A DNA stretch of 64,000 nucleotides from contig NZ_CP146022.1 in NCBI RefSeq assembly GCF_036967205.1, positions 806,001-870,000 on the forward strand. The letters are read 5' to 3'. Shown piece by piece: positions 31,959-51,870 of the stretch. Source of the DNA: Streptomyces sp. Q6. Its GTDB lineage: Bacteria > Actinomycetota > Actinomycetes > Streptomycetales > Streptomycetaceae. Position 1 is the first letter of the stretch. Every line of letters starts with the position of its first letter. The notes under the pieces are model-generated. The model searched no databases and was not told the DNA's origin. It saw only the letters and a list, made by a program, of their open reading frames with translations. A program made the position numbers and the translations under genes.

Positions 31959-33092
31959 TCACGCGCCCAGGCTCGCGCGGTGTGCGCCGCGCAGTGGGAC
32001 GGCGAGTTCGGCGAGGGCCTGCTCCAGGGCGTGCAGGTGGGCCAGGACGGGCTCGGCGTCCGCGGCCTGCGGCGCGGTGTCGACGCGGCGCCGGTAGGGG
32101 GCGGGCGCGGTGAGGGCCTCGACGGCGGACTCCACGCGCCAGCAGGCGGCGGCGAGTCGCGCGTCGTGCGAGGCCTCCGGGTCGGCGGCGACGGAGGCGA
32201 GCCCGCGTACCTCGCGGGCGCAGTCGTCGAGCAGCGCGAGGACCTGTAGGGCGCGTCCCTTGCGGGCCTTCATCGGGCTGAGGGGATGCACGAGGGGCGC
32301 CAGCGAGAGGCGTACGCGGCCGAGGATGTGCTCCAGCTCGGCGACGAGCGGCGCGGGGTCGGCGGCCTCGTCCCCGGCGAGGCGGGCCGCCGCCTCGGCG
32401 GTGCACGCGTGCACGCGGCGCAGCGCCCGCTCGACCCAGGCGTCGGTCACGGAGTGCGTGGTCACGGGCAGGACGAGCAGGACGGCGAGCGCGGCGCCGA
32501 GGGCGCCGACGGCGGTCTCGGTCACCCGCAGCGCGAGCAGCGCCGGGTCGAGCACGCCGAGCAGCCCGTAGAGCATGCTCGCCATGACGGTGACCGCGAG
32601 CATCATCCAGGTGTAGGAGACGGCGGCGGTGTAGAAGATGCCGAAGACGCTCAGGGCGACGACCACGGCGGCCACGACCGGTTCGTGGTGGAGCGGTACG
32701 GCGACGGCGAAGCCCAGCACGATGCCGAGCACCGTGCCGAGGAACCGCCGGAATCCGCGCACCAGCGTCTCGCCGCGCGAGGTCGTGTTCACGAACACCC
32801 ACCAGGTGGCGCCGACCGCCCAGTACCACCGCTGGTCGGACAGGACCTGCCCGACGGCGAGCGCGAAGCCCGCCCCGGCGGTCGCCTGGACGGCCTGCCG
32901 CGTGGTGATGCGGGCGAGTCCCGTGCCCCCGGTCGGCGCGGCCACGGCCACCGGTGCCGGCAGTTTCCGTTCGTAGGTCCACAGGCCGAACCGGACGGTC
33001 GCGGCGGTGGCGAGGGACAGGAGTACGGCCACGTACAGCTCGGGGAGCCGGTCGGGGGTGGCGTGCAGGAACTGGGTCGCGAAGAACATCAT
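31959..33092 (-). pseudogene. FUSC-family transporter, 5'-truncated at the integrase junction
   Basis: The 377 residues correspond to the last three quarters of the FUSC protein encoded at 34367-35878. They share long blocks such as GVLDPALLALRV and RVRLSLAPLVHPL. The N-terminal membrane block is missing. Homology stops abruptly at about 33092-33098, and integrase-associated sequence begins. The remaining frame can start only at an internal Met (MMFFATQFLHA), so I treat it as a remnant. The missing 5' part is not elsewhere in the window. Confidence 0.8.
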
Positions 33093-33119
33093 GAACGCTG
33101 CTCGTTAGGCGCGGCCGCA

Positions 33120-33163
33120 GGTCAGCGCCATACTGACGCCCCCGGGGTCAGCAAAAGGTCAGC
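33120..33163. repeat. GGTCAGC direct repeats before the integrase gene, possible arm sites
   Basis: GGTCAGC occurs at 33120, 33146 and 33157, with CTGAC and GTCAG variants close by. All lie within 65 bp between the FUSC break and the integrase start. Repeats like this could be integrase or excisionase arm-binding sites, or an operator for the integrase promoter. Confidence 0.4.
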
Positions 33164-33182
33164 ACGAGCACGGAGTCAGTAC

Positions 33183-34340
33183 ATGGCGACCAAGACCCTC
33201 GCCCGCGGCATGGGCACGTTCTTCAAGGAGTGCCCTTGCAAGGCACCGACCCGGTGCCCTCACCCCTACAAGATTCGCTACAGGGACGCGACCGGCAAGC
33301 AGCGAGAGGAGTCGGGCTACGCCACACAGGACAAGGCGACAACCCGCCTCACGGAGCTGTATCAGGCGAAGAAGGGATCACAGAAGGCAGGCCCTTCGGA
33401 GGGCGAGAAGATCGGCGTCCAGACCCTGGAGGACTTCGCCTCCAACTGGATCGCCCACCGAGCACGCGGTCTCAAGGACAACAGCGTCGAGAGCTACGAG
33501 CGAGCGCTGACGCTGCACATCATTCCCCGTCTCGGGTCGCGCAAGGTCGGCACCTTCACGGCGAACGCCGTCGACAACTTCGTCGGGGACATGGTGCTCG
33601 ATGACGTCGGCAGCGCCGCGCAGACGAACGCGTACAAGGTTCTGCGGTTGGTCATCAACTCCGCGCGGCATCGAGGTGGACTGTCGCTGGACCCGTTCCT
33701 CGACACAACGCCACCGGACTACCAGCGCAAGGACATCCTGATCCCCACGCTGGAGGAGCTCAATCTGATCCGGCAGCACGCCCATGACGACGACTTGCGC
33801 CTGGTCGTGGAGATGATGTCGGGCTGCGGCCTGCGGAACGGTGAGGCTCACGCCACCAACATCAACGGCCTCGTCGCAGCGGACGTCTACCGCATCACGG
33901 ACCAGATCCATGGACGCCAACGAATACCTGCACCACTCAAGCATCGCGACTGGGGTGAATTCCGAGAGACCCCGATGCCCGCGAAGACGCGTGCGCACTT
34001 GATGCGGCACGCAGAAACACATTCCCCGGACCAACTCGGATATCTGATGACCAATGGCGGCCGAGGGGGAGCAGGCGTCGGCGGCAGCCCGTACTACAGC
34101 GGAAACGCTTTCCGCCACAAATGGCAGAAGACCCTGGGCGCTGCCGGCATCACCACGCGCTACACCATGTACAGCCTGCGCCACTTCTTCGCTTCCAACT
34201 GCCTCGCCATGGGCATTCCGATTACGGATGTGGCGGAGTGGATGGGCCACAAATCCATCGAGGTGACGTATCGCATCTACCGTCATCTGATGCCGTCGTC
34301 GATCGGGCGAGCCGCACGGCTGCTCAACGCCGGCATCTGA
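33183..34340 (+). CDS. int: Tyrosine site-specific integrase
   Basis: The 385-residue protein has an N-terminal Cys-rich zinc-ribbon-like arm domain (FFKECPCKAPTRCPHP). A SAM-like core-binding domain lies at about residues 80-180, followed by a catalytic domain. Visible catalytic residues are Arg in GCGLRNGEA, the YSLRHFFAS box and the GHKSIEVTYRIYRH nucleophile region. The usual His before LR in box II is replaced (YSLRH). This type occurs in actinomycete integrative elements and prophages. It sits at the boundary between a broken FUSC gene and IS-rich DNA, 27 bp from the 3' end of a second FUSC gene. Confidence 0.92.
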   Translation: MATKTLARGMGTFFKECPCKAPTRCPHPYKIRYRDATGKQREESGYATQDKATTRLTELYQAKKGSQKAGPSEGEKIGVQTLEDFASNWIAHRARGLKDNSVESYERALTLHIIPRLGSRKVGTFTANAVDNFVGDMVLDDVGSAAQTNAYKVLRLVINSARHRGGLSLDPFLDTTPPDYQRKDILIPTLEELNLIRQHAHDDDLRLVVEMMSGCGLRNGEAHATNINGLVAADVYRITDQIHGRQRIPAPLKHRDWGEFRETPMPAKTRAHLMRHAETHSPDQLGYLMTNGGRGGAGVGGSPYYSGNAFRHKWQKTLGAAGITTRYTMYSLRHFFASNCLAMGIPITDVAEWMGHKSIEVTYRIYRHLMPSSIGRAARLLNAGI

Positions 34341-38210: not shown

Positions 38211-39043
38211 TCACACCCACATCAGGAGTGAGGCGAGGGTGACTGCTGCTTCGTAGGACTGGGCGGTCTTGTCGTATCGGGTGGCGATCCCGCGCCACTG
38301 CTTCAGGCGATTGAAGCACCGTTCCACGACGTTGCGTCGCTTGTAGACCTGCTTGTCGAAAGCGGGCGGGCGGCCTCCTCGGCTGCCGCGTCGGTGGCGG
38401 TTTCGGGCCTAGTCGGCGCGTTCAGGGATGGTGTGTCCGATGCCGCACCGTCGGAGCCAGGCTCGGATGGCCTTGGAGCTGTAGCCTTTGTCGCCCAAGA
38501 CGTGATCGGCCCGGACACGCGGCCGTCCGGGCCCGAGCCGTGGCACACGTATCGCCTCCATCACGGCGGTGAACTGGGTGCAGTCGTTGGTGTTGCCGCC
38601 AGTGACGACCAGGGCGAGTGGGCGGCCGAGGCCGTCACAGGCCAGATGAATCTTGCTGGTCAACCCGCCTCGGGAACGGCCCAGCGCTGGGCTGCGATGC
38701 CCCCTTTTCGGGCCCCGGCGGCATGCTGGTGGGCCCGGACGATGCTGGAGTCGACCGACACCAGCCAGTCGATGTTCCCGGCAGCATCTGCTCGGGCCTG
38801 CGCGTTTTTCAGCATCCGGTCGAACGTGCCGTCCGCCGCCCAGCGGCGGAAGCGGGTGTGCAGGCTGGCCCAGGACCCGTACCGCTCGGGTACATCTCGC
38901 CAGGCCACTCCCGCCCGGAACTTCCACATGATCCCGTTGAGCATCCTCCGGTCATCGAGCCGAGGGCGACCCATCGACTTCCGGGGTAGCAACGGCTGCA
39001 CGAAGTCCCACTCGGCATCCGTCAGTTCATGGCGACGCGTCAC
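38211..39043 (-). pseudogene. IS5-family transposase (IS427-type), inactivated
   Basis: OrfA begins at ATG 39043 (HELTDAEWDFVQPLLPRKSMGRPRLDDRRMLNG). The reading passes to the OrfB frame at the GAAAAGGGG slip site near 38700, as normal for this group, with the DDE residues around VDSSIVRAHQH, LGDKGYSSKA and RNVVERCFNRLKQWRG. A TAG at about 38409-38411 interrupts the OrfB frame where a sense codon is expected (PERAD-stop-ARNRH). The right terminal repeat could not be found, so the element is broken as well. Confidence 0.8.
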
Positions 39044-39286
39044 CTGACCATGATCACATTGACGACACGGCCTAGCGTGGCCCGCACCTGGCGTCTGCAG
39101 CCAGGGATCAGATGCTCAATGCGCCGACCTCGCCGTTCTACGAACGCCCGTGAGGTATTCCAGTTCGGTCAACTTGTAGGGGCTGCTTGTCCCAATGAGC
39201 ATCTGAGTGGGTGTTCTGCGAGTCGTCGTGGCCGGTTGTCCGGTTTGAGGGGTTGCGGTTGGCCGCTTCTGCGGTGTGCTGGAGAC

Positions 39287-40144
39287 GTGGCTGATCGGCA
39301 GCCGTACCCGAGCGATCTGTCGGACGAGGCATGGGAGTTGATCCGGCCGGTCATCACGGCCTGGAAGGGGCAGCACCGTTCGGTCAGCGGCCATGAGGGC
39401 CGGTACGAGATGCGGGAGATCGTCAACGCGATCCTGTACCAGGCCCGGGTCGGCTGCCAGTGGCGCTATCTGCCGCACGACCTTCCGCCCTACACCGCGG
39501 TCTACTACTACTTCGGGCTGTGGCGCGACGACGGCACCGACCAGACCATCCACGACCTGCTGCGCTGGCAGGTCCGCGAGTCGAAAGGCCGGCGCGAGGA
39601 CCCGTCCGCGGTCGTGATGGACTCCCAGACCGTGCACGTCTCGCTCAACGCCCCGAAGGAGACGACCGGCCTGGATCCGGGCAAGAAGAGCCGGGGCCGC
39701 AAGCGGGGCATCGCCACCGATGTGCTCGGTCTGCTCATCGCGGTGATCGTGGTCGCCGCGAGCGTGCACGACAACGCCATCGGGATCACGCTGCTGGACA
39801 AGGTGGCCGCCGACAACCCCGGCGTGGTGAAGAGCTGGGTCGATGCCGGGTTCAAGAACGCCGTCATCGAGCACGGCCGGTCACTGGGCATCGACGTCGA
39901 GGTGGTGTCCCGGGATCCGCAGACCAAGGGGTTCGCCCCGGCCCCGAAACGGTGGATCGCCGAGCAGACCTTCGGCACCCTCATGCTGCACCGCCGCCTG
40001 GCCCGCGACTACGAGACCCTGCCCGCCAGTTCGGCGTCCTGGATCCGCTGGTCGATGACCGACGTCATGACCCACCGGCTCACCGCCACCACCACTCCCA
40101 CCTGGCGGGACCCGCCACCGGCCCGCCGGCCCGGACCGGCATGA
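39287..40144 (+). CDS. IS5-family transposase
   Basis: From GTG 39287, after GGAGAC, the 285-residue protein has the IS4/IS5 N-terminal domain (YPSDLSDEAWELIRPVI ... CQWRYLPHDLPPYTAVYYYF). A DDE domain follows, with MDSQTVHVS, WVDAGFKNAVIEHG and EQTFGTLMLHRRLARDYE. It is full length and shows no obvious damage. Its stop overlaps the next gene as ATGA. Confidence 0.85.
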   Translation: MADRQPYPSDLSDEAWELIRPVITAWKGQHRSVSGHEGRYEMREIVNAILYQARVGCQWRYLPHDLPPYTAVYYYFGLWRDDGTDQTIHDLLRWQVRESKGRREDPSAVVMDSQTVHVSLNAPKETTGLDPGKKSRGRKRGIATDVLGLLIAVIVVAASVHDNAIGITLLDKVAADNPGVVKSWVDAGFKNAVIEHGRSLGIDVEVVSRDPQTKGFAPAPKRWIAEQTFGTLMLHRRLARDYETLPASSASWIRWSMTDVMTHRLTATTTPTWRDPPPARRPGPA

Positions 40145-40691: not shown

Positions 40692-41324
40692 CTAATGTCC
40701 GCGGGCGATCCAATCCGCCAAATATGGGGCTTCAGCACCAATGGTGGTGCTCTCCCCATGCCCTGGGTGCACCTGCGTAGTAGCGGGCAGGACGAGGAGC
40801 CGGTCCCGGATCGAGCGGATGATGGTGGGGAAATGTGAATAGGACCGTCCGGTAGCCCCAGGGCCACCGGCGAAAAGGGTGTCGCCCGTGAAGACAGTGC
40901 CGAGTGCGGGCGCGTAGAGACAGACGGCCCCAGGGGTGTGTCCCGGCGTGTGCAGTACGCGCAGTTCGGTCCCGGCGACCTCGATGCGCTGATCGTCGGA
41001 AACATAGCCGTTCGGATCACGGCCGGGATGGGTGTGTTTCCACAGCAACCGGTCGTCGAGGTGCAGGAGGATCCGGGCGTCGGTTTCTTCGGCCAGCTTG
41101 GGAGCTGCGTTGATGTGGTCGTCGTGGGCGTGTGTAGAGACGATGGCCGCCACCACCCGGGATCCCACAGTGGCCCTGATGGCGCGAGCGTCGTGGGCGG
41201 CGTCGATGACGACGACCTCGTGGTCGTCGCCGACGATCCAGACGTTGTTCTCGACGTCCCAGGTATCGCCGTCCAGGCTGAACGTCCCTGATGTGACGAC
41301 GCGTTCGATACGTGCGCCGGGCAT
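40692..41324 (-). CDS. MBL-fold metallo-hydrolase, putative S-formylmycothiol hydrolase
   Basis: The 210-residue protein has the metallo-beta-lactamase metal site STHAHDDH (His65, His67, Asp69, His70), then GHTPGAV, FTGDTLF and HPGHGE. It is glyoxalase-II-like in size. It overlaps the upstream dehydrogenase gene by one base (TGATG), and this pairing is typical in actinobacteria for mycothiol-dependent formaldehyde oxidation. There it would hydrolyse S-formylmycothiol to formate and free mycothiol. A generic thioester hydrolase is the alternative. Confidence 0.8.
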   Translation of the reverse strand: MPGARIERVVTSGTFSLDGDTWDVENNVWIVGDDHEVVVIDAAHDARAIRATVGSRVVAAIVSTHAHDDHINAAPKLAEETDARILLHLDDRLLWKHTHPGRDPNGYVSDDQRIEVAGTELRVLHTPGHTPGAVCLYAPALGTVFTGDTLFAGGPGATGRSYSHFPTIIRSIRDRLLVLPATTQVHPGHGESTTIGAEAPYLADWIARGH

Positions 41325-42409
41325 CAGAGGATCACCACCGAGCGCAGCACATCGCCTTGGTCCATGCGGGCGAAGGCGGCTTCAATGTCGTCGAGCGAGA
41401 TCGTCTCAGTCACGAACGCGTTCAGGTCCAGTCGGCCCTGGAGATAGAGGTCGACAAGCATGGGGAAGTCGCGGGAGGGCAGGCAGTCGCCGTACCAGCT
41501 CGACTTGAGCGCACCGCCGCGACCGAAGACGTCCAGGAGCGGCAGTTCCAGCTTCATCTCGGGCGTCGGGACACCGACAAGGACGACGGTTCCCGCCAAG
41601 TCGCGGGCGTAGAACGCCTGCCGGTAGGTCTCTGGGCGGCCGACGGCCTCGATGACGACGTCAGCGCCGTGACCGCCCGTCAACTCCCTTACTGCTTCTA
41701 CCGGATCGGTCTCCTTGGCGTTCACGGTGTGGGTAGCGCCCAGGGTGCGGGCCGTCGCGAGTTTCCGCTCGTCGAGGTCGATGGCGATGATTGTCGCCGC
41801 GCCCGCGAGACGGGAGCCGGCGACGGCCGCGTCACCGACACCGCCGCAGCCGATGACCGCCACGGTGTCACCGCGGCCGACGCCGCCGGTGTTGATCGCC
41901 GCGCCGATACCGGCCATCACACCGCACCCGAGCAGCCCTGCGGCGGCAGGCGAGGCCGCAGGATCCACTTTGGTGCACTGCCCTGCCGCCACCAGCGTCT
42001 TCTCTGCAAACGCGCCTATTCCCAGGGCGGGCGAGAGTTCGGCCCCGTCCAGGAGGGTCATCTTCTGTTTGGCGTTGTGGGTGTCGAAGCAGTACTGCGG
42101 GCGTCCGCGTCGGCAGGCCCGGCACCGGCCGCAAACAGCACGCCAGTTGAGGATGACAAAGTCGCCGGGCGCGACCTCGCTCACACCCGCACCGACCGAC
42201 TCCACGATTCCGGCCGCCTCGTGGCCGAGGAGGAAGGGGAAGTCGTCGTTGATGCCGCCCTGCCGGTAGTGCAGGTCGGTGTGACAGACCCCGCAGGCCT
42301 GTACGGAGACCACCACCTCTCCTGGTCCGGGATCGGGCACGACGATCGTCTCGACGCGCACGGGTTCGCCCTTGGAATGTGCGACGACGCCGCGTACGTG
42401 CTGGGGCAT
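41324..42409 (-). CDS. S-(hydroxymethyl)mycothiol dehydrogenase (mycothiol-dependent formaldehyde dehydrogenase)
   Basis: The 361-residue zinc alcohol dehydrogenase has catalytic ligands Cys42 (GVCHTDLH) and His63-Glu64. The structural zinc is held by four Cys at 93, 96, 99 and 107, and NAD binds at [11 protein letters not shown]. The sequence around [31 protein letters not shown] is characteristic of the MscR/AdhE2 subgroup. That subgroup oxidises the spontaneous adduct of formaldehyde and mycothiol to S-formylmycothiol. Lying between a demethylating P450 gene and the MBL hydrolase gene, it removes the formaldehyde that the P450 releases. Confidence 0.9.
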
Positions 42410-42464
42410 GGCTGATCCTCTCGGTCCTGATACGACTGCTGAAGGCGGAGGGCGGTGCGCGGGG

Positions 42465-43682
42465 TCACCGGGTCGGGCGGACGCGTACCGGGAGAGCTGC
42501 CCAGGAGCGGAGTGTGTTGTTGAGGTGGCGCCGGGGTTCGCCCGCGAGCTCGATGTGCTCGATGCGGCGGGCCAGGGCGGTCAGCAGTGCCTCGGCCTCG
42601 AGGCGGGCGACATGCTGGCCGACGCACTGGTGGATGCCCATGCCGAAGCCGACGTGGCCCGAGGAATCGCGGGTGAGGTCGAAGCGATCGGGGTTGTTCC
42701 AGCGGGCGGGATCTCGGTTGGCGGCGCCGAGGAACATGAGAATCTTGCTGCCCTCGGGAATCACCGTGCCGGCCACCGAGACGTCGGTGGTGGCGGTACG
42801 GAAGAAGGTCTGCACCGGCGACTGCCAGCGCACTGCCTCGTCGAACGCGACCCGCGCCAGCTCCAGCCGCTCACGCAGCCGCTGCCACTCGCCGGGGTGG
42901 GTGGCGAAGGCGTAGAGGGTGGCCGCGAGTCCGTGGACGGTGGTGTCTACGCCGGCGGTGAGCAGCGAGCGCACCACGAGCGGTGCTTGCTCGGGGGTGA
43001 GGTCGCCCCGGTCGGCCGCGGCCCAGATGGCCGCGCCGAACCCCTGCTCGCCGAGCGCCTCGCGTGTGCACTGGCCGCCCACCCAGGTCGACAGCTCGGC
43101 CGTGCGGGGCGCGTCGGCCTCGACCAGTTCGTTGCGGGGGCCGAAGGCGTTGAAGGCCATGTTGCCGTAGGGCAGGAGGTTGTCGCGCCCGTCGGTTCCC
43201 AGGCCGACGGCGTCGGGGAAAACACGCAGCGGAAAGGCTTTGGCCAACTCCTCGAAGGCGTCGAAGCGGGTGCCGTCGCCGGTCAGTACGGTGTCAACGA
43301 GTTCGTCGGCCGTCGTCTGCCAGCTCTGCCGCAGCCGACGCAGGGCGGGCGGGGCGAGAAGCTCGCGCAGGACGCGCCGTGGGGCGTCGTGGTGCGGCGG
43401 GTCGGCCTCGAGGAGCAGGCTCGGGGGGCGCCACGGCTTTTCGTGGCGGAAGTTGGCGAGGCCCACGCCGGCGGCGGACTGGAAGGTCTGCCAGTCGACG
43501 AGCGCAGCGTGCACCTCTTCGTAGCGGGCCAGGGCGTGGACGTCGTAACGGGTGAGGTGGACGACCGGGCCTGCTGCGCGCAGCGCCTGGTGCAGGGGTT
43601 CCGGATGTTCAAGGTTTTCCGGGGCGAACGGGTCGGCGTCACTGGTGGGGGTCGTGACAGCAATGTGCGACGTTTCGTTCAT
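42465..43682 (-). CDS. Cytochrome P450, CYP199A-like aromatic-acid O-demethylase
   Basis: ATG 43682 follows a GGGAG site. The 405-residue P450 has the I-helix AGVDTT (243-248), ExxR at Glu282-Arg285, and the haem-thiolate Cys353 in [12 protein letters not shown]. Stretches such as [30 protein letters not shown]-like NAFGPRNEL and [11 protein letters not shown] match the CYP199A pattern. The characterised members O-demethylate 4-methoxybenzoate. The product would be a hydroxybenzoate plus formaldehyde. Neighbouring genes supply the reductase (upstream) and formaldehyde disposal (downstream). Confidence 0.85.
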
Positions 43683-43722
43683 GCGGCGGCTCCCAGTACA
43701 CGGCGTAGCAGGTCTCGGCGGC

Positions 43723-44727
43723 TCAGATGTCCAGGACGATGCGGTCACCGCAGGAGCGGGAGACGCAGGGGAACATGCAGTCGTTGGCCGCGCGTTCGTG
43801 TTCGGCCAGAAGGGCGTCCCGGTGGTCGGGCACTCCTTCCAGGACGGGGGTCAGGCAGGTTCCGCAGGTGCCCTGCTCGCAGGAGGACAGGAGATCGACT
43901 CCGGCACGGCGGACGGCATGGAGGACCGAGACGCCGGGTTCGACGGTCACGGTGCTGCCGGTCCGGCGCAGTTCCACCTCGAAGGGCGTGCTCCGTACGG
44001 GCTCCGTCTGCTTCGCCGCCGCGAAGCGCTCGGTGCGCAGACAGTGGGGCGGCCAGGCAGTACATGCCTGCTCCACGGCGTTCAGCAGCGGCGGCGGCCC
44101 GCAGCAGTACACCTTGGTTCCCGAGGCGGGTTCGGCCAGCCAGGTCGCGAGATCCAGCAGCCCGCACTCGTCCTGCGGCACGAGACGCACGCGGTCGCCG
44201 TAGGCGCCGGACATCTCGTCACGGAAGGCCATGGACGCGCGGGTTCGGCCTCCGTAAAGCAACTGCCATTCCACGCGCATCAGTTCGGCCTGCCGAATCA
44301 TCGGCAGCAGCGGAGTGATGCCGATTCCGCCGGCGATGAACAGGTACCGCTCGGCCGGAACCAGCGGGAAGTTGTTGCGCGGGGCCCCGGCCCCGACCGG
44401 GCTCCCTAGGGCGAGCCGGTCGTGCACGTACGCCGACCCGCCTCGTCCCGCCGGTTCGCGCAGCACGGCGATCCGGTAGCTGTGGGCGTCCCAGCGATCG
44501 CCACACAGCGAGTACTGCCGGGTTGTCCCGTCCGGCAGGATCAGGTCGATGTGTGAGCCGGGCGTCCAGTCCGGCAGCCGTCCGCCGTCCGGGCGGGAAA
44601 GAGTCAGGGACACGACGCCATCGGCGACGGCGTCTTTGCTGCGGACCTCCAACATCATGGTGGACGTGCTGTGTTGAGGGCCCGCTGGGGTCAGGGTGCG
44701 TACGACCACGTTGTCGCCTCCCGTCAT
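43723..44727 (-). CDS. Phthalate-dioxygenase-type (PDR/VanB) reductase, redox partner of the P450
   Basis: The domain order is flavin-binding (RQYSLCGDRWD), NAD-binding (GGIGITPLLPMIRQ ... CCGPPPLLNAVE) and a C-terminal plant-type 2Fe-2S ferredoxin (CEQGTCGTC plus a fourth Cys in MFPCVSRS). This is the single-chain reductase of the vanillate demethylase/phthalate dioxygenase family, using NADH and FMN. The 334-residue length assumes Met at 44727. An upstream ATG at 44781 is also open, and no good ribosome-binding site decides. It lies 40 bp upstream of the P450 gene and probably feeds it directly, as a separate-chain version of the reductase module found fused in CYP116B enzymes. Confidence 0.88.
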   Translation of the reverse strand: MTGGDNVVVRTLTPAGPQHSTSTMMLEVRSKDAVADGVVSLTLSRPDGGRLPDWTPGSHIDLILPDGTTRQYSLCGDRWDAHSYRIAVLREPAGRGGSAYVHDRLALGSPVGAGAPRNNFPLVPAERYLFIAGGIGITPLLPMIRQAELMRVEWQLLYGGRTRASMAFRDEMSGAYGDRVRLVPQDECGLLDLATWLAEPASGTKVYCCGPPPLLNAVEQACTAWPPHCLRTERFAAAKQTEPVRSTPFEVELRRTGSTVTVEPGVSVLHAVRRAGVDLLSSCEQGTCGTCLTPVLEGVPDHRDALLAEHERAANDCMFPCVSRSCGDRIVLDI

Positions 44728-44790
44728 CGGAATGCAGGAAGGATGCGCGTGGCCGCAGTCACACCGCGACGCGATTCTCACTCAGCGAGA

Positions 44791-44802
44791 GAGAAATTTC
44801 TC
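44791..44802. promoter_or_regulatory. GAGAAATTTCTC palindrome, candidate IclR operator
   Basis: This is a perfect 12-bp palindrome in the 104-bp gap between the IclR gene and the reductase gene, at about -65 from the reductase start. It is AT-rich relative to its surroundings. The position suits control of the demethylation operon by the adjacent regulator. Confidence 0.5.
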
Positions 44803-44831
44803 GGGAATGCCATACGGCTGTCGCGTCCCCG

Positions 44832-45596
44832 TCACACATGTCCCGTCGAGCCGCGCACGGCGAGGGCCCTGGAGATGCCGAGAGCCGCGGTACGTACCAC
44901 GGGGACGACGACGTGGGCGTGTTCGTCGTTGGGCACGATGACCGCCAGCGCGGCGGCCACCGAGCCGTCGTCGCCGCGGACTGGGGCGGCGATACCCAGG
45001 GCATCCTCGTGCACATAGCCCGGGCAATAGGCGTATCCCTGTTGCCGTATCTCGGCGAGCAGGGCGCGCAGCCGCGAGGGCGAGACCGGGGTGCGGGAGG
45101 TGTAGGCGGTACAGGGGCCGACGAGGATGCGCTCTCTCAGTTCGGCGGAGCCATGGGCGAGGAACACCAGGCCGCTGGAGGAGGCGTGCAGAGGCAGCCG
45201 TCCGGCGATGCGGGTGTAGTTGACCACTGCTCCCGGCGCGGAGAGCCGCTCCAGGAAGAGCACATCATCGCCGTCGAGGACACCCAGCTGCACATGGTGA
45301 CCGACCACGTCGTGGACCCCTTCCATGAAGGGCATGGCCGCGTCGCGCAGGGACAGCGCGGGGGACGCACGGGTCGCCAGTTCCCACAGGCGGACCCCAA
45401 TCCGCACCTTGCGGTCGTCGTCCCGGCTCAGGAAGCCGTGGGCCACCAGTTCGGTCACGAGCCGTGAGGCTGTCGCCACGTGCAGCCCGGTGCGACGGGC
45501 GATCTCAGAGACGGCCAGTGCGGGAGCATCCTGGGTGAACGCCTCCAGGATGCGCGTCGCCCGGGAGAGTACCGACTCGCCGTGAGGTTGCTTCAT
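44832..45596 (-). CDS. IclR-family regulator of the demethylation operon
   Basis: The 254-residue protein has an N-terminal winged helix (LAVSEIARRTGLHVATASRLVTELVAHGFLSR) and a C-terminal IclR effector domain (GHHVQLGVLDGDDVLFLERLS ... GYAYCPGYVHEDALGIAAPV). IclR proteins commonly sense aromatic acids and control their degradation. It is encoded immediately upstream of, and on the same strand as, the reductase-P450-dehydrogenase-hydrolase genes. ATG 45596 follows GGAAG. Confidence 0.88.
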   Translation of the reverse strand: MKQPHGESVLSRATRILEAFTQDAPALAVSEIARRTGLHVATASRLVTELVAHGFLSRDDDRKVRIGVRLWELATRASPALSLRDAAMPFMEGVHDVVGHHVQLGVLDGDDVLFLERLSAPGAVVNYTRIAGRLPLHASSSGLVFLAHGSAELRERILVGPCTAYTSRTPVSPSRLRALLAEIRQQGYAYCPGYVHEDALGIAAPVRGDDGSVAAALAVIVPNDEHAHVVVPVVRTAALGISRALAVRGSTGHV

Positions 45597-45945: not shown

Positions 45946-46843
45946 GGGCGTGTCTTCAAAGTGGGTGGAGCCAGAGGAGCGTTGATGCGAGGGTGACCGC
46001 GGCTTCGAAGGAGGTCGCGGTCTTGTCGTATCGGGTGGCGATGCCGCGCCATTGCTTGAGGCGGTTGAAGCAGCGCTCGACGACGTTGCGGCGCCGGTAG
46101 GCAGCCTTGTCGAAGCCGCATCGCCGTTCACGGCGTCGTGCTCGCCCGGCGAGTTGGTCGACCCGTTCGGGAATGGTGGCCTTGATGCCGCGTCGGCGCA
46201 GATGGGTGCGGATGGCCCGGGACGAGTAGCCCTTGTCCGCGACCACCCGGTCGGGGCGAGTGCGGGGGCGACCGGGGCCGAGTCGAGCGACGCGAATACC
46301 CGCCATGACCTGTTCGAACTGGGTGCAGTCATTGCGGTTACCGCCAGTGAGAGTGAACGAGAGCGGGCGGCCGCGGCCGTCACAGGCAAGATGGATCTTG
46401 GTGGTCAGTCCACCTCGGGATCGACCGAGGGCGTGATCTGCCGGTTCGTCCCTCGACCTGCCCCCCTTTTCGCGCCGGCCGCGTGTTGATGGGCACGGAC
46501 CACAGTGGAGTCGACGGCCACCAGCCAGTCCACGTCCGCGTTCGCGTCGCGGTCGGCCTGGACCGCGGCAAGCATGCGGGTGAACGTGCCGTCCAGGGCC
46601 CACCTGCGGAAACGTGTGTACAACGACTGCCACGGCCCGTACCGGGCTGGCACATCCCGCCAGGCGGCGCCCGCACGGATCTTCCATACGATCCCGTTCA
46701 ACATCGTCCGGTCGTCCGCCCGCGGGCGACCGAACGATGCCGCCGGTAGGAACGGGCGTAACAACTCCCATTCCTCATCGGTCAGTTCATAGCGGCGACT
46801 CACAAGACCCATCATCCCGCACCGCTACTTTGAAGACAGGCCC
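45946..46843 (-). mobile_element. Complete 898-bp IS5-family (IS427-type) element
   Basis: Terminal repeats GGGCGTGTCTTCAAAGT and, inverted, GGGCCTGTCTTCAAAGT differ at one base. A TA duplication flanks both ends (45944-45945 and 46844-46845). This is the target preference of the IS427 group. The transposase is encoded on the minus strand. Confidence 0.88.
45956..46815 (-). CDS. IS5-family transposase made by -1 frameshifting
   Basis: OrfA (SRRYELTDEEWELLRPFLP ... VDSTVVRAHQHAAGAKRG) and OrfB (GGLTTKIHLACDGRGRPLSF ... VERCFNRLKQWRGIATRYDK) overlap around GCGAAAAGGGGGG near 46468. One backward slip fuses them into a full DDE transposase. The stop codon lies inside the left terminal repeat. 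No disabling mutation was seen, so the element may be active. Confidence 0.82.
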
Positions 46844-46846
46844 TAA

Positions 46847-47893
46847 CGAGCTCGTGCACGGTAGGCGGTGAGACGTCGAGCCTGGATGGTTGATCATGGT
46901 CGGGTGGTGGGGAACTCGACGCGCGCGGTGATCATCGGCAATCGGCGGATCACGGGGCTGACTGCCGGAGTGATTGCTGAACTCGTCGAGGAGATCGGAC
47001 CGTTGTGGCATGAGCGTCATCAGGCGAGGCTTGCCGCTCGCCCGCGGCAGAGGGCTGTGGGCGCAGGCGCGAAGTACCGGCTGGTGTTCGTCGACCGGCT
47101 GCTGGCCACGCTGGTCCATCTTCGTCACGGGGTCACCCATGATGTGCTGGCCTGCTGGTTCGGAGCGGACCGTTCCACCGTCACCCGGGCCATCGGTGAG
47201 GTGCGGCCCCTGCTCGCCGAGCGGGGCTGCACCGTCAGCCCCGACGTGCGGCTGCGGTCTCTCGCTGAGGTTGTCGACCATCTCGGCGCGAGCGGGGCGA
47301 CCGGCATCGTCGACGGCACCGAGATCCGGGTCCGCCGGCCCGCTGCCGGACGCAAGGACCGCGACAAGTTCATCTCCGGCAAGAACAAGCAGAACGCCGT
47401 CAAGTCCATGGTGGTCACGGACGGCGAAGGCCGCGTGCTGTGGTGCAGCCCGGCCCGTCCCGCAAGCTGCGCGGACATCACCCATGCCCGCCAGTTAGGG
47501 CTGGTCAACCTCTTGGCCGACGGGCCTGCAGTCGAGATCCTGGCTGATGCCGGCTACCAGGGACTGGGCGCCCAGACCGGTGGCCGGGTGGTGACACCAC
47601 CGCACCGCAAGTTCAAGAAGAACGCCCCGGACTGGTACGAAGAGATGCACGAGCGCCAGCGCAAGGCGCACTCATCACGACGTATCCGTGTCGAGCACGG
47701 CATCGCCCATCTGAAGAACTGGCGGGCCCTGGCCCGCCACCTCGGCCGCCGCGAGCACATGAGCGACACCGTCCAAGCCATCGCCGGCCTGCTGTCCCAC
47801 CAGCAGACCGCGGACCTGAACCCGACATGGCAGATGTGAAGCTGGGTCGCACCGAAGTTCGCGACGTCTCACCGCCTACCGTGCACGAGCTCG
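46847..47893 (+). mobile_element. 1047-bp IS with 32-bp perfect terminal repeats, copy 1
   Basis: The ends share 32 bp of perfect inverted repeat beginning CGAGCTCGTGCACGGTAGG and are flanked by a TAA duplication (46844-46846 and 47894-47896). It abuts the previous IS on its left and another IS on its right. A second copy at 58972-60018 is nearly identical. Confidence 0.9.
46868..47839 (+). CDS. Transposase of the 1047-bp IS (DDE_Tnp_4 type), copy 1
   Basis: The 323-residue protein has a helix-turn-helix N-terminal region (CWFGADRSTVTRAIGEVRPLL). The DDE triad appears in IVDGTEIRVRRP, EILADAGYQG and RVEHGIAHLKNWRALARHL. It is intact. It differs from the copy at 59 kb by two amino acids (Ala/Gly in ADAGYQG and Asp/Gly near the end). 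The HARBI1-like DDE_Tnp_4 domain places it among IS5-related transposases. Confidence 0.88.
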   Translation: MRRRAWMVDHGRVVGNSTRAVIIGNRRITGLTAGVIAELVEEIGPLWHERHQARLAARPRQRAVGAGAKYRLVFVDRLLATLVHLRHGVTHDVLACWFGADRSTVTRAIGEVRPLLAERGCTVSPDVRLRSLAEVVDHLGASGATGIVDGTEIRVRRPAAGRKDRDKFISGKNKQNAVKSMVVTDGEGRVLWCSPARPASCADITHARQLGLVNLLADGPAVEILADAGYQGLGAQTGGRVVTPPHRKFKKNAPDWYEEMHERQRKAHSSRRIRVEHGIAHLKNWRALARHLGRREHMSDTVQAIAGLLSHQQTADLNPTWQM

Positions 47894-48768
47894 TAAAGCG
47901 TGTTGCACAAGGCGGTGTTCGGGCAGGTCAGGGTTAGTGAGGGCAGTCCTCTGGTCATGAGGCGAGGGCGAGGTTGTGCATCTGGGCGACGGCTTGGACG
48001 GCGTGGTGAAGGCCGTCGCCGTGCTGCCGGCAGTCGCGGAGGATCTTGTAGTTCTTCATCCGGCCGATCACATGCTCCACCCGGGCCCGCACCGTGCGAT
48101 GGGCGGCGTTGTCGGCCTCCTCGCCCGCCAGCAGCTCGCGTCGGGGGCGTTTGCGGTGCGGGGTGACCATCCCGCAGTTGAGGTAGGCGCCGTCGGCCAG
48201 CATGGTCACGCCCTGGCAGTGCTGGGCCAGGCCGGAGGCCCGCCAGGCGTGCGCGTCCGCGGTGGTGCCCGGCACCGGCCGGGCCGCGGCGATCACGAGA
48301 CGGGTGTCGGCATCCACAATGACCTGCACGTTTGCGGAGAACCGGTAGTTGCGTGAGGAGGAGCCGACGTGCCGGTCGCGGACCGGGATGAGGGTGCCGT
48401 CCACGATCCACAACCGGTCCGCCGCGTCGGCCGGACGGGCCACCGGCTCCAGCGCGAGCAGCGGGCCGAGCTTCTGGATCACCCGGCACACGGTCGAGGA
48501 AGAGGTCCCGAACAGCGGCCCGAGCTGCCGCATGGTCAGGTTGGTGCGGTAGTACACGGCCACGATCAAGACCCGTTCGGCCAGCGGCAGACACCACGGA
48601 CGGCCCCGCAGCGTGCCGTTGCCGCCTCGGTCACGGACCACCCTCAGCAGCCGCCCGAACTGCTCCATCGACAGCCCCGTGAACGTCTCCACCCACACCC
48701 GTTCAGCCCTCAACACCCCAGCCATACACCGGATATGCCCAGTTCACGGCCTTGTGCAACACGCTTTA
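47894..48768 (-). mobile_element. IS5-family element inserted against the end of the NACHT gene
   Basis: Inverted repeats TAAAGCGTGTTGCACAAGGC (left, from 47894) and its exact complement (right, ending 48768) bound the element. It begins at the last base of the preceding IS's target duplication and ends within the stop codon of the NACHT gene. Coordinates are good to about one base. Confidence 0.8.
47955..48725 (-). CDS. IS5-family transposase (DDE_Tnp_4 with HTH_Tnp_4)
   Basis: The 256-residue protein has an N-terminal helix-turn-helix (TNLTMRQLGPLFGTSSSTVCRVIQKL) and DDE residues in LWIVDGTLIPVRDRH, TMLADGAYLNCG and RARVEHVIGRMKNYKIL. It is undamaged by eye. It is unlike the neighbouring IS transposases in sequence, so three different elements lie side by side here. 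Confidence 0.87.
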   Translation of the reverse strand: MAGVLRAERVWVETFTGLSMEQFGRLLRVVRDRGGNGTLRGRPWCLPLAERVLIVAVYYRTNLTMRQLGPLFGTSSSTVCRVIQKLGPLLALEPVARPADAADRLWIVDGTLIPVRDRHVGSSSRNYRFSANVQVIVDADTRLVIAAARPVPGTTADAHAWRASGLAQHCQGVTMLADGAYLNCGMVTPHRKRPRRELLAGEEADNAAHRTVRARVEHVIGRMKNYKILRDCRQHGDGLHHAVQAVAQMHNLALAS

Positions 48769-51700
48769 GGACAACCGGCGCCGGGCGGTGTCCACGAGGC
48801 CGGGGTAATGGCGGTCGAGTACACGTCGCAGGCGGTCCCGGACGTCGGCGGACACGGTGTCGTCGGAGGAGCGCGCCATCAACGGCATTTCCTCGCGCAG
48901 CAGTTGGTCGAGTGGTCGGCGGACCTCCGCGGGCAGGCGGTGCCGGTCACGGTCCCGCGCCGTCGCCAGGAGGTCCACCAGCCGGTCGAGGTGCGCATAC
49001 CGCGGACCCAGCTCCGCGATCCCCCGCATGACCCGGGTGTACCGGTCGGCCAGCTCGGCCCGCGGCAGATCCGTTGTGTCGGCCAGTATCAGGGTCAGCG
49101 CATCATGGGCGAGGGACGTGGCGCGCTCCCCGGGGACGGCGACGAACGTGGTCAGCGCCGCGCCCAGGTTCGCGAGGACCGGGTCGAGCGCGTGGCGGGT
49201 GATGCCGTCCGACGTCGGACCCGACACCGCCGACTTGTGCCAGAGCTCGTCCCAGTACGTGCGCTGCCAGCAGCCGTCCTGCCCGCGGCCGCGCCCGAAC
49301 AGCCAGTTAGCGTCGAGCGGGTCCGGGACGAGGGGCGGGCCAGGGGTACGCAGCCGGATCTCGAGGCGGCGTCGGCCTGCCTCGTTCCAGCGGTGGTGGG
49401 TCTCCAGCGACAGGGCGAAGTCCGTCCACTGCGCCTCGTCCATCGACGCGCGCCACAGCAGGCAGTGCCGCAGCCATGCGTCGGCCGCGGCGTCGTCGGC
49501 AGCGTCGGGGAAGAGGTCGGCGGCGGTCGCCGCGTCGTAGAGGGCGACGATCACGAGGACCAGGTTGGAGCCGTAGATGCCGTGCCGGGACGAGGTCGGC
49601 AGCGGCTGCGGACAGTACGCGGCGTGCTCGTCGCCTGTGCGGGTCCGGTGTCGGTACAGAACCTGCACGAGCCGTGCCGCCAGCCGCCGCCGTTCCCCGT
49701 CGGACATGCGGCCCAGCAGCTCCCGGGCGAATCCCAGCATCTGGCGCGAGGCCAGGGACGCGTACGAGAGCAGGGCGTAGGCAAGGTCGTCGTCCGCTTC
49801 GTCGTCCGGGGCTGGCGTGTTCGAGGCCGCGAGGTCCCGGAGCAATCGCACGGCGAGCCGCACCGCCAGGTACTCGCCGAAGGTGGCGTGCAGGAACTCA
49901 TAGGTCGCCAGGTCCTCCTCTCTCCATTGGGAGCGCGCCCGGTGCACGAAGAAGAAGCGCCCCAGAGCGATTTCCCCCTCCTTCAGCAGGGCACCAGTTC
50001 CGGTCGGGCCGGCGGCGGGTCGGTGCGGGAGGGCGGTCAAGTCCTGGTCGAGTTCGCCGGCGGACACCCATTGCCGCCGCCGGTTGACCGTGGCGAAGGC
50101 GACGAGCGACAGACGGTGCAGTTCCCGTTCAACGAGGTCGCTCGTTACATCGTCGGGGACGGCACCGCGGGTGGCCTTGCCGACCTCGCGCCGGGCGAAG
50201 GATGACAGGAGCTGCTCGTAAAGTTCCGTGACGGCCAGCGGCTCGGCGTCCTCACGGGGCAGACCGCCCTCCGTCGCGTCGTACAGCGCAAGCATCGTCA
50301 ACAGCAGCGGCTGGGTGGCGAGTTCGGTGTGCCGGGCGACGGTCTGCCAGGACAGCGGGCGCGCAGCCGACGCGTTGGTCCGGTTCCAGATGGCGAGCCA
50401 TGTCCTGACCTGTTCCGGACGGAACGGCTCGAGGCGGAGGGCGACCGTGCCCTCGGGGAAGCGGGCCCGGTCCGCAACGGCGGTCCGGCTCGTCACGAGC
50501 ACCACGACCGGGCGTCCCTGCTCGCTCTCGCGCCGCTGGAAGCGTGCGACCCGCGTCAGGTAGTCCTGGTGGTGTGTTCCGGTGGTCTGGAGGAGTTCGT
50601 CGAAGCTGTCGAGGAGCAAGACAGGGGTCGAGCCACCGGCGGCTCGGACCAGGTCCGGCCATGTGGTGCGTTCGCCGGTGGCGATCCTGATGGCCTGTTC
50701 GATCTGGTCCTGGAGGTCGCTGTCCGCCCGTACCTCGCGCAGTGGCACCCGTACGGGCAAGAAGCCGGCGCCCGGCAGACGCGCGGCCAGGACGCGGGTC
50801 AGCACCGACTTGCCGGCGCCGGGCTGGCCGAGGACGAGGAGCGGCGCCTCGGTCAGCACCGGGTTCGTCAGGGCGCCCACCAGGTACCGCGTCAGGTCGC
50901 CCCGTACGGCGTGCCGCTCCCACCAGGTCTCGTCGGCCGGGCCCGCGCGCCCCTGGGGCTGCGCGACCCGGAAGTCGGGGTCGATGTACAGGGCGCCCAG
51001 CGAGGGGACGCTGACTCCCTCGGGGGTGGTGGAGGCGTCCAGGACGGGGTGGTCCAGGGCCGCGGTGTGCGCCCGGCAGAGCCGGTCGGCCACGTCAACG
51101 GGCCGGTCGAGGGCACGGGTCGTCGCCGCCAGCAGCGCGTCGATCCCGTCGAGCGCGCGGCGCACCGCGGCCCGGGTGGACTGGTGCTCGGCCTGCGTCA
51201 CCCAGAAGGCGAACTCGGGAGCGGTGACGCACAGTTGGGAGAAGAGGCCCTGGTACTTGGCTTGGGCGGCCGACGTCATCCGGGACAACTCCAGGTGGGC
51301 CGCTGCCTGTTGGTAAGGGGGCAGCGCTTCCCACATGGCGAGGCCCTGGAGGAAGGCGATGAACCGGGTCGCGTACTGCTCGTACCGGGACCGGAGCGCC
51401 GCCGAGATTTCCTCGGGCGGGGTGTGCGGGGTCGGGTACGGCAGGCCCGTCGCAAGCAGCGACGCGACGAAGTCGGCGTCGTGCCCCTCGGCGAGCCGGA
51501 GCTGTTCGGATCGGGTCAGTTCCACGTCGTCCAGGGAGAACGGCAGCACCACCTCCTCCAGCGCCTGGAACCAGGCCACGAGGACGATGACCGTATGGGC
51601 CGCGCGCAACACATCGGTGCGGTCGGCACGGCGGGGCGTCCGGCCCAGCCGGCCCCCCGCGTTGCGCAGGGCGTCCCGGCCGAGGCCCACGATCCGTCCG

Positions 51701-51870
51701 CGCTCGGACACCATGCCCAGCACCGTGCCGCTCACCCCGCCTGTCGCCACGTTCAGCACGCCCCCCAGGGCACGGTCCAAGGCCGCGATCCGCGCCGAGT
51801 CCACCCCCAGCAGATCCAGGGCGTCCGTGAACGACAGCAGTCTTCCCGCCCCCACCTTGTCCCCCGTCAC
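48766..51870 (-). CDS. NACHT-domain NTPase, STAND-type, possible anti-phage defence protein
   Basis: GTG 51870 follows CGGAGC. The 1034-residue protein has a helical N-terminal domain (about 1-250), resembling the NACHT N-terminal helical (NNH) domains of actinobacteria. A NACHT NTPase follows: Walker A GQPGAGKS at 348-355, Walker B VLLLDSFDELL near 417-427, and VTSRTAVADRARF sensor region. A long alpha-helical C-terminal region follows without recognisable leucine-rich or TPR repeats. Bacterial NACHT proteins of this architecture include experimentally shown anti-phage proteins; that role here is inferred. The stop codon falls in the repeat of the adjoining IS, so the natural C-terminus may be lost. 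Confidence 0.78.
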   Translation of the reverse strand: MTGDKVGAGRLLSFTDALDLLGVDSARIAALDRALGGVLNVATGGVSGTVLGMVSERGRIVGLGRDALRNAGGRLGRTPRRADRTDVLRAAHTVIVLVAWFQALEEVVLPFSLDDVELTRSEQLRLAEGHDADFVASLLATGLPYPTPHTPPEEISAALRSRYEQYATRFIAFLQGLAMWEALPPYQQAAAHLELSRMTSAAQAKYQGLFSQLCVTAPEFAFWVTQAEHQSTRAAVRRALDGIDALLAATTRALDRPVDVADRLCRAHTAALDHPVLDASTTPEGVSVPSLGALYIDPDFRVAQPQGRAGPADETWWERHAVRGDLTRYLVGALTNPVLTEAPLLVLGQPGAGKSVLTRVLAARLPGAGFLPVRVPLREVRADSDLQDQIEQAIRIATGERTTWPDLVRAAGGSTPVLLLDSFDELLQTTGTHHQDYLTRVARFQRRESEQGRPVVVLVTSRTAVADRARFPEGTVALRLEPFRPEQVRTWLAIWNRTNASAARPLSWQTVARHTELATQPLLLTMLALYDATEGGLPREDAEPLAVTELYEQLLSSFARREVGKATRGAVPDDVTSDLVERELHRLSLVAFATVNRRRQWVSAGELDQDLTALPHRPAAGPTGTGALLKEGEIALGRFFFVHRARSQWREEDLATYEFLHATFGEYLAVRLAVRLLRDLAASNTPAPDDEADDDLAYALLSYASLASRQMLGFARELLGRMSDGERRRLAARLVQVLYRHRTRTGDEHAAYCPQPLPTSSRHGIYGSNLVLVIVALYDAATAADLFPDAADDAAADAWLRHCLLWRASMDEAQWTDFALSLETHHRWNEAGRRRLEIRLRTPGPPLVPDPLDANWLFGRGRGQDGCWQRTYWDELWHKSAVSGPTSDGITRHALDPVLANLGAALTTFVAVPGERATSLAHDALTLILADTTDLPRAELADRYTRVMRGIAELGPRYAHLDRLVDLLATARDRDRHRLPAEVRRPLDQLLREEMPLMARSSDDTVSADVRDRLRRVLDRHYPGLVDTARRRLS

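Follow-up and report, generated by a model that had tools for sequence, protein, structure and literature searches.

How does a bacterium that strips methyl groups from aromatic acids dispose of the formaldehyde released, and can a dedicated route be recognised next to the demethylase itself? This question is raised by a 64,000-nt stretch of Streptomyces sp. Q6 (genome of 8.95 Mb in two contigs), C1:806001–870000, hereafter the window, whose positions are used below unless another contig or locus is named. Its minus strand carries, in 5'→3' order, genes for an IclR-family regulator, a phthalate dioxygenase reductase (PDR)/VanB-type reductase, a cytochrome P450, a mycothiol-dependent formaldehyde dehydrogenase (mscR) and a metallo-β-lactamase (MBL)-fold hydrolase, and all five open reading frames were found on one strand in the order given by the original prediction. 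We consider it likely that the locus is a substrate-inducible para-methoxybenzoate O-demethylation operon with formaldehyde disposal. The genuinely interesting part of it is the linked formaldehyde pair, mscR and the MBL gene.

A CYP199A P450 with a single adjoining reductase gene

The P450 gene (42465–43682) was compared with solved P450 structures. The best relative is PbdA of Rhodococcus jostii RHA1 (9g9q), with 278 of 394 aligned columns identical (70.6%), followed by CYP199 structures, namely CYP199A4 and CYP199A2 of Rhodopseudomonas palustris, which belong to the same subfamily by sequence. These two enzymes receive their electrons from a ferredoxin and a ferredoxin reductase that are separate proteins. 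A P450 is assigned to a subfamily when it shares more than 55% identity with a named member, a value that the identity to PbdA exceeds. PbdA itself has been placed in CYP199A (PMC11530827, available text). We took 12 active-site positions from that paper and could locate 10 of them in the window P450; all 10 are identical, including Arg84, Ser87, Ser237 and Ala174, while the printed numbering allowed no placement of Phe173 and Phe176. At the placeable positions, the carboxylate-binding Arg, the two Ser and the hydrophobic pocket of CYP199A enzymes are thus conserved, and Ala174 has been connected with veratrate activity by the PbdA authors, in the text available (PMC11530827). The predicted place of the P450 inside the CYP199-like group is borne out by these comparisons, and O-demethylation is its likely function, given the PbdA likeness, the conserved active site and the formaldehyde route encoded alongside. 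It is very unlikely that the main substrate is some other para-substituted benzoate or an alkylbenzoate, with formaldehyde not the usual product. CYP199A enzymes do oxidise 4-ethylbenzoate according to the same partial source (PMC11530827) and an identity of 70.6% is not enough to establish the substrate, but the 10 matching positions and the presence of a formaldehyde-disposal gene behind the P450 in several lineages argue against this alternative.

The reductase (43723–44709) consists of a flavin/NAD module with PF00175 and, after it, a plant-type 2Fe-2S domain at the C terminus (PF00111). It matches phthalate dioxygenase reductase (2pia) over the full length (E 1.6e-54), and its best solved matches are CYP116B-type reductase domains, which the output labels as P450 chains only. 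The domain layout and the 2pia match confirm a PDR/VanB-type enzyme. Its likeness to PbdB is judged from the domains, the solved relatives and the gene position.

To see how general this pairing is, we scanned genome contigs and found 238 P450 relatives, the best 80 of which were examined for all locus counts given here. These counts rest on tblastn, because clustering of neighbours still misses genes. In 80/80 relatives, the P450 gene has a PDR-type reductase gene next to it (the match in locus L019 is partial), and no ferredoxin gene lies between the two in the window or in any of the 80 loci. This is the arrangement of PbdA and PbdB, in which a CYP199A P450 is likewise served by one cognate flavin/2Fe-2S reductase; in the available text, the two proteins with NADH demethylate 4-methoxybenzoate, veratrate and isovanillate, and the reductase suffices for turnover (PMC11530827). 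The original prediction had regarded the pairing as undescribed. That claim fails: the pairing is neither undescribed nor unusual, because PbdAB has been published and the reductase gene adjoins the P450 in every relative examined, so that among them a P450 with a PDR-type reductase is the rule. The 35 best P450 relatives come from Streptomyces (34) and one genome labelled Kitasatospora. Within the genus, the P450 occurs at E ≤ 1e-100 in 11 of 150 sampled genomes, the window's own included, with at least 77% identity in seven; linked mscR was found in two of these 11, and one locus ends too soon.

A probable formaldehyde-disposal pair behind the P450

Directly downstream, mscR (41324–42409) encodes S-(hydroxymethyl)mycothiol dehydrogenase. 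Its product scores 688.8 bits against an equivalog cut-off of 512.9 for TIGR03451, which confirms the predicted mycothiol-dependent formaldehyde dehydrogenase. The next gene (40692–41324) encodes a protein with the expected MBL fold (PF00753) and no specific NCBIfam family above cut-off, a proposed S-formylmycothiol hydrolase. The mycothiol biosynthesis gene mshA is present in the genome (657.7 bits, cut-off 462.5). These two downstream genes distinguish the window from PbdA/PbdB, and the words 'formaldehyde' and 'operon' are absent from the main text of PMC11530827.

Among the relatives, an mscR-like sequence lies within 400 nt after the P450 in 22/80 loci. Of the 77 loci whose downstream sequence extends for 1300 nt or more, 19 carry near-full-length mscR there (15 Streptomyces, two Nonomuraea, one Nocardiopsis and one Actinoplanes). 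All 19 copies are on the same strand as the P450, with alignment ends 21–77 nt apart, and in 16 of them the MBL match starts −6 to +9 nt from the mscR match. The joining of formaldehyde-disposal genes to the P450 set, first noticed in the window, is strengthened by this recurrence. With the reductase and P450 adjoining in all 80 loci and near-full-length mscR in 19 of the 77 assessable ones, the gene set is more than chance. An MBL gene lies beside 17 of 20 linked mscR copies (window included) and beside 40 of the 45 unlinked ones. A second, housekeeping pair lies in the same genome (C1:8175418–8177129 region); there the two genes keep their order, are 85% and 72% identical to those of the window, and are not beside a CYP199A P450.

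Extra mscR copies without an MBL partner also occur in other settings. One (L147:425–1558) lies beside a Rieske oxygenase that is nearest to GbcA (234.5 bits, cut-off 670), and two (L135:2–1378 and L150:2–1498) lie beside FAD enzymes of the dimethylglycine/sarcosine-oxidising type (domains DAO and FAO_M). At L140, the neighbour of the extra mscR is a transporter gene instead of a demethylase-like gene.

Regulator, operator-like site and transcription units

The regulator gene iclR (44832–45596, minus strand) encodes PF01614 and PF09339. Its best NCBIfam match is PcaR/PcaU/PobR (TIGR02431), at 122 bits against a cut-off of 284.75, which places it in the IclR family only; it probably senses the aromatic acid or its product. 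A copy of iclR lies within 4.5 kb upstream in 71/80 loci, on the same strand in 51 and on the opposite strand in 20.

A palindrome of 21 bases (44775–44795, minus strand), a putative IclR operator, lies in the gap that separates iclR from the reductase gene. The aligned leaders of relatives carry it in the strict form TCTCTCNNTNANTGAGAA. At no more than one mismatch, the strict 18-base palindrome has a single match in the 8.95-Mb genome, at 44775–44792, and a reversed control pattern has no match in the whole genome. In 28/36 Streptomyces/Kitasatospora loci, the best palindrome match is exactly 135 nt upstream of reductase residue 41 (numbered in the longest frame). In 64/79 loci (one locus was too short), a looser form occurs in the 260 nt before that residue, against 13 matches in 1,099,329 other same-strand bases. 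Since the palindrome was derived from loci later counted, the value of 64/79 is descriptive, whereas its uniqueness in the window's own genome is not circular. A related palindrome is found at the divergent iclR-reductase junction in eight Geodermatophilaceae loci. The presence of iclR in cis is weakly associated with that of the palindrome (60 with and 11 without, versus 4 and 4; Fisher p 0.038, related loci counted separately). L019 lacks the palindrome, an absence that may be an artefact of its partial reductase match.

The palindrome also bears on the gene starts, which we revised from ribosome-binding stretches and comparison with relatives. The longest reductase frame starts at 44781, within the conserved palindrome; the likely start is instead the GTG at 44709, behind the conserved GGGAGGCGACAAC. 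For the P450, the likely start is the ATG at 43682, preceded by GGGAG. The genes are indeed close, as predicted, but the gaps of 1–104 bp given originally do not hold: they become 122 bp (iclR-reductase), 40 bp (reductase-P450) and 55 bp (P450-mscR), and mscR and the MBL gene overlap by 1 base.

A single five-gene operon, as originally predicted, is no longer the preferred reading. Because a conserved palindrome and leader follow iclR, and because iclR is on the opposite strand in 20/80 loci, two transcription units are probable, with iclR as a separate unit that controls a four-gene operon. From that prediction we keep as an operon, by inference, the four genes from the reductase to MBL, for which the palindrome is the putative operator.

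Proposed pathway

In the pathway that we infer, the NADH-fed reductase would pass electrons through its flavin and 2Fe-2S centre directly to the P450, which would hydroxylate the para-methoxy carbon of 4-methoxybenzoate, and probably of veratrate and isovanillate too, yielding 4-hydroxybenzoate (or vanillate) and formaldehyde. Formaldehyde and mycothiol would form an adduct, MscR would oxidise this to S-formylmycothiol, and the MBL hydrolase may split the latter into formate and mycothiol. The aromatic product could enter a route through PobA and protocatechuate 3,4-dioxygenase, both encoded elsewhere in the genome. The IclR protein would sense the acid or its product and act at the palindrome upstream of the reductase gene, with the result that disposal would be induced together with the formaldehyde source. 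Such feed-forward detoxification, in which a full disposal pair has been placed more than once under an aromatic-substrate regulator and the source rather than the poison triggers disposal, has in our judgement about an even chance of being correct.

The genomic context fits a methoxybenzoate pathway. Elsewhere in the genome are a pobA-like gene (639.2 bits to PRK08243, over the cut-off of 351), pcaH, one VanA-type oxygenase and a formate dehydrogenase alpha subunit. A trio of P450, PDR/VanB reductase and IclR genes is also found on plasmids of Rhodococcus. In the copy on a plasmid of R. opacus (not from RHA1; L176, 8988–12059), the trio has an annotated 4-hydroxybenzoate 3-monooxygenase about 8 kb away and, unlike the window, no mscR match. 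Some relatives have a different gene behind the P450. In Blastococcus (L064:8318–9748) it is a GcvT-type demethylase-like gene with 572.7 bits to the syringate demethylase DesA (cut-off 800), and the same gene cluster recurs in L061 and L077. With GcvT-type O-demethylases, folate receives the methyl group, and no formaldehyde would be set free. The occurrence of mscR beside other demethylase-like genes hints at a wider habit of formaldehyde-releasing pathways.

Dispensability and apparent repeated recruitment of the pair

Several observations weigh against the proposed operon with built-in disposal. Near-full-length linked mscR is missing from 58 of the 77 assessable relatives, and in three loci there are mscR remnants alone behind the P450 (L020:8280–9098, L029:8297–8560 and L037:8231–8488), which are consistent with decay of a formerly linked gene. 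Because of these 58 relatives and three remnants, the linked pair is dispensable. The MBL protein is a proposed S-formylmycothiol hydrolase by neighbourhood only. Of the 21 searched genomes without a near-full-length linked copy, 15 nonetheless have at least two mscR copies. The pobA-like gene falls just below the TIGR02360 cut-off (532.2 versus 538.7), and a scan of promoters and terminators found nothing.

Could the pair then be a passenger, a housekeeping mscR-MBL pair that landed behind the P450 with no functional tie? We regard this as unlikely. It draws on the second pair in the genome, on the many relatives that manage without a linked pair and on the frequency of extra copies. A search at E ≤ 1e-130 in the genomes of 41 loci, 39 of which were reached, found at least one mscR in all 39, and of the 18 genomes with near-full-length linked mscR, 17 have at least two copies. 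However, the linked gene of Nocardiopsis sp. N85 is the sole copy found in its genome, all 19 near-full-length cases from four genera share strand and short spacing, and formaldehyde is the expected P450 product.

The history of the linkage bears on the same question. We built a quick tree of 65 mscR copies (20 linked, 45 unlinked; duplicates dropped, and part of the copies found used), in which 28 of the 62 inner branches are shown as open. Six changes of linkage label were counted on it, at least four of them forced by starred branches. The Nonomuraea linked copies group with unlinked Nonomuraea copies, that of Actinoplanes with an unlinked copy from another Actinoplanes genome, and the linked copy of L032 with an unlinked one from its own genome, while the position of the Nocardiopsis copy, on a long branch, is unsure. 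A single gain for all 20 linked copies was rejected (one-clade tree, approximately unbiased test, p 2.88e-41), so the adjacency arose more than once, which again speaks against a passenger. One clade for the 16 Streptomyces linked copies, a subset picked after inspection of the tree, was not rejected (p 0.111), and part of the recurrence may accordingly be inheritance, a point in favour of the passenger. The P450 tree shows 14 label changes, at least nine of them forced, with the three remnant loci scored as linked. Since a single origin is rejected and three loci keep remnants, the pair seems to have been recruited and lost repeatedly, the simplest reading being at least two recruitments and several losses.

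Flanking mobile elements and neighbouring genes

Insertion sequence (IS) elements on both sides of the locus had been predicted, and transposase genes were found left and right. The left flank (38229–40144) contains IS4/5-type transposase genes (PF13340, DDE_Tnp_1) with repeats D1–D3 and D5; the right flank (45983–48725) contains an IS4/5-type transposase gene and two DDE_Tnp_4 transposase genes (PF13340, PF13359). Two related IS4/5-type copies lie in direct orientation on the two sides, and a plasmid of Streptomyces sp. NBC_01450 carries all five genes, as might be expected if a composite transposon bounded by these elements moved the operon as a unit. This idea is extremely improbable, and a recent composite transposon is rejected because the copies have diverged: they are only 70–83% identical in ungapped matching stretches, and are therefore not the near-identical IS copies that such a transposon would have at its two ends. 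In addition, the gene order is the same in relatives but the surroundings differ.

Further features lie nearby. Since perfect 33-nt inverted repeats at 46846–47894 bracket a DDE_Tnp_4 transposase gene (46868–47839), this IS copy looks intact and recent. A 684-aa phage-integrase-family recombinase (32286–34340, plus strand), some 6 kb away from the IS elements on the left, possibly marks an integrative element. On the other side, a 1034-aa STAND-like NTPase (48766–51870, minus strand) has an NNH7 NACHT N-terminal helical domain (205.1 bits) and weak AAA matches. It has a weak PADLOC match; the search of four window proteins against defence models gave one weak match.

Significance

The original prediction was right in its observation and very probably right in the function assigned. 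Two-protein demethylases are known. By its title, the 4-methoxybenzoate demethylase of Amycolatopsis magusensis (Heliyon 2024, cited in PMC11530827) is a two-component system from an actinobacterium for the same substrate. The guaiacol demethylase of Rhodococcus rhodochrous also combines a P450 with a single reductase for aromatic O-demethylation; its substrate is guaiacol, one companion gene lies immediately downstream, and the word 'mycothiol' is absent from the portion of the text available (PMC6411806). Routes of formaldehyde have been reviewed (PMC8879981, available part). In strain GD02, acetovanillone is accompanied by a rise in genes assigned to a putative mycothiol-dependent formaldehyde pathway (PMC13101465, available part). 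Among the matches listed for the open literature, no title or abstract opening describes the linkage of a CYP199 or other demethylating P450 to formaldehyde-disposal genes, although earlier notice is possible. The novelty lies in the recurrent linkage of the disposal pair and in the one conserved site that resembles an operator.

In the excerpts available, O-demethylation is described as rate-determining for the valorisation of lignin (PMC11530827), and growth may be slowed by the formaldehyde burden that it brings (PMC13101465). A natural cassette of regulator, operator, demethylase and dedicated disposal pair would be a ready design for lignin-valorising strains. The repeated gain and loss of the pair would also serve as a natural test of when it pays to keep a private enzyme for detoxification beside a housekeeping one.

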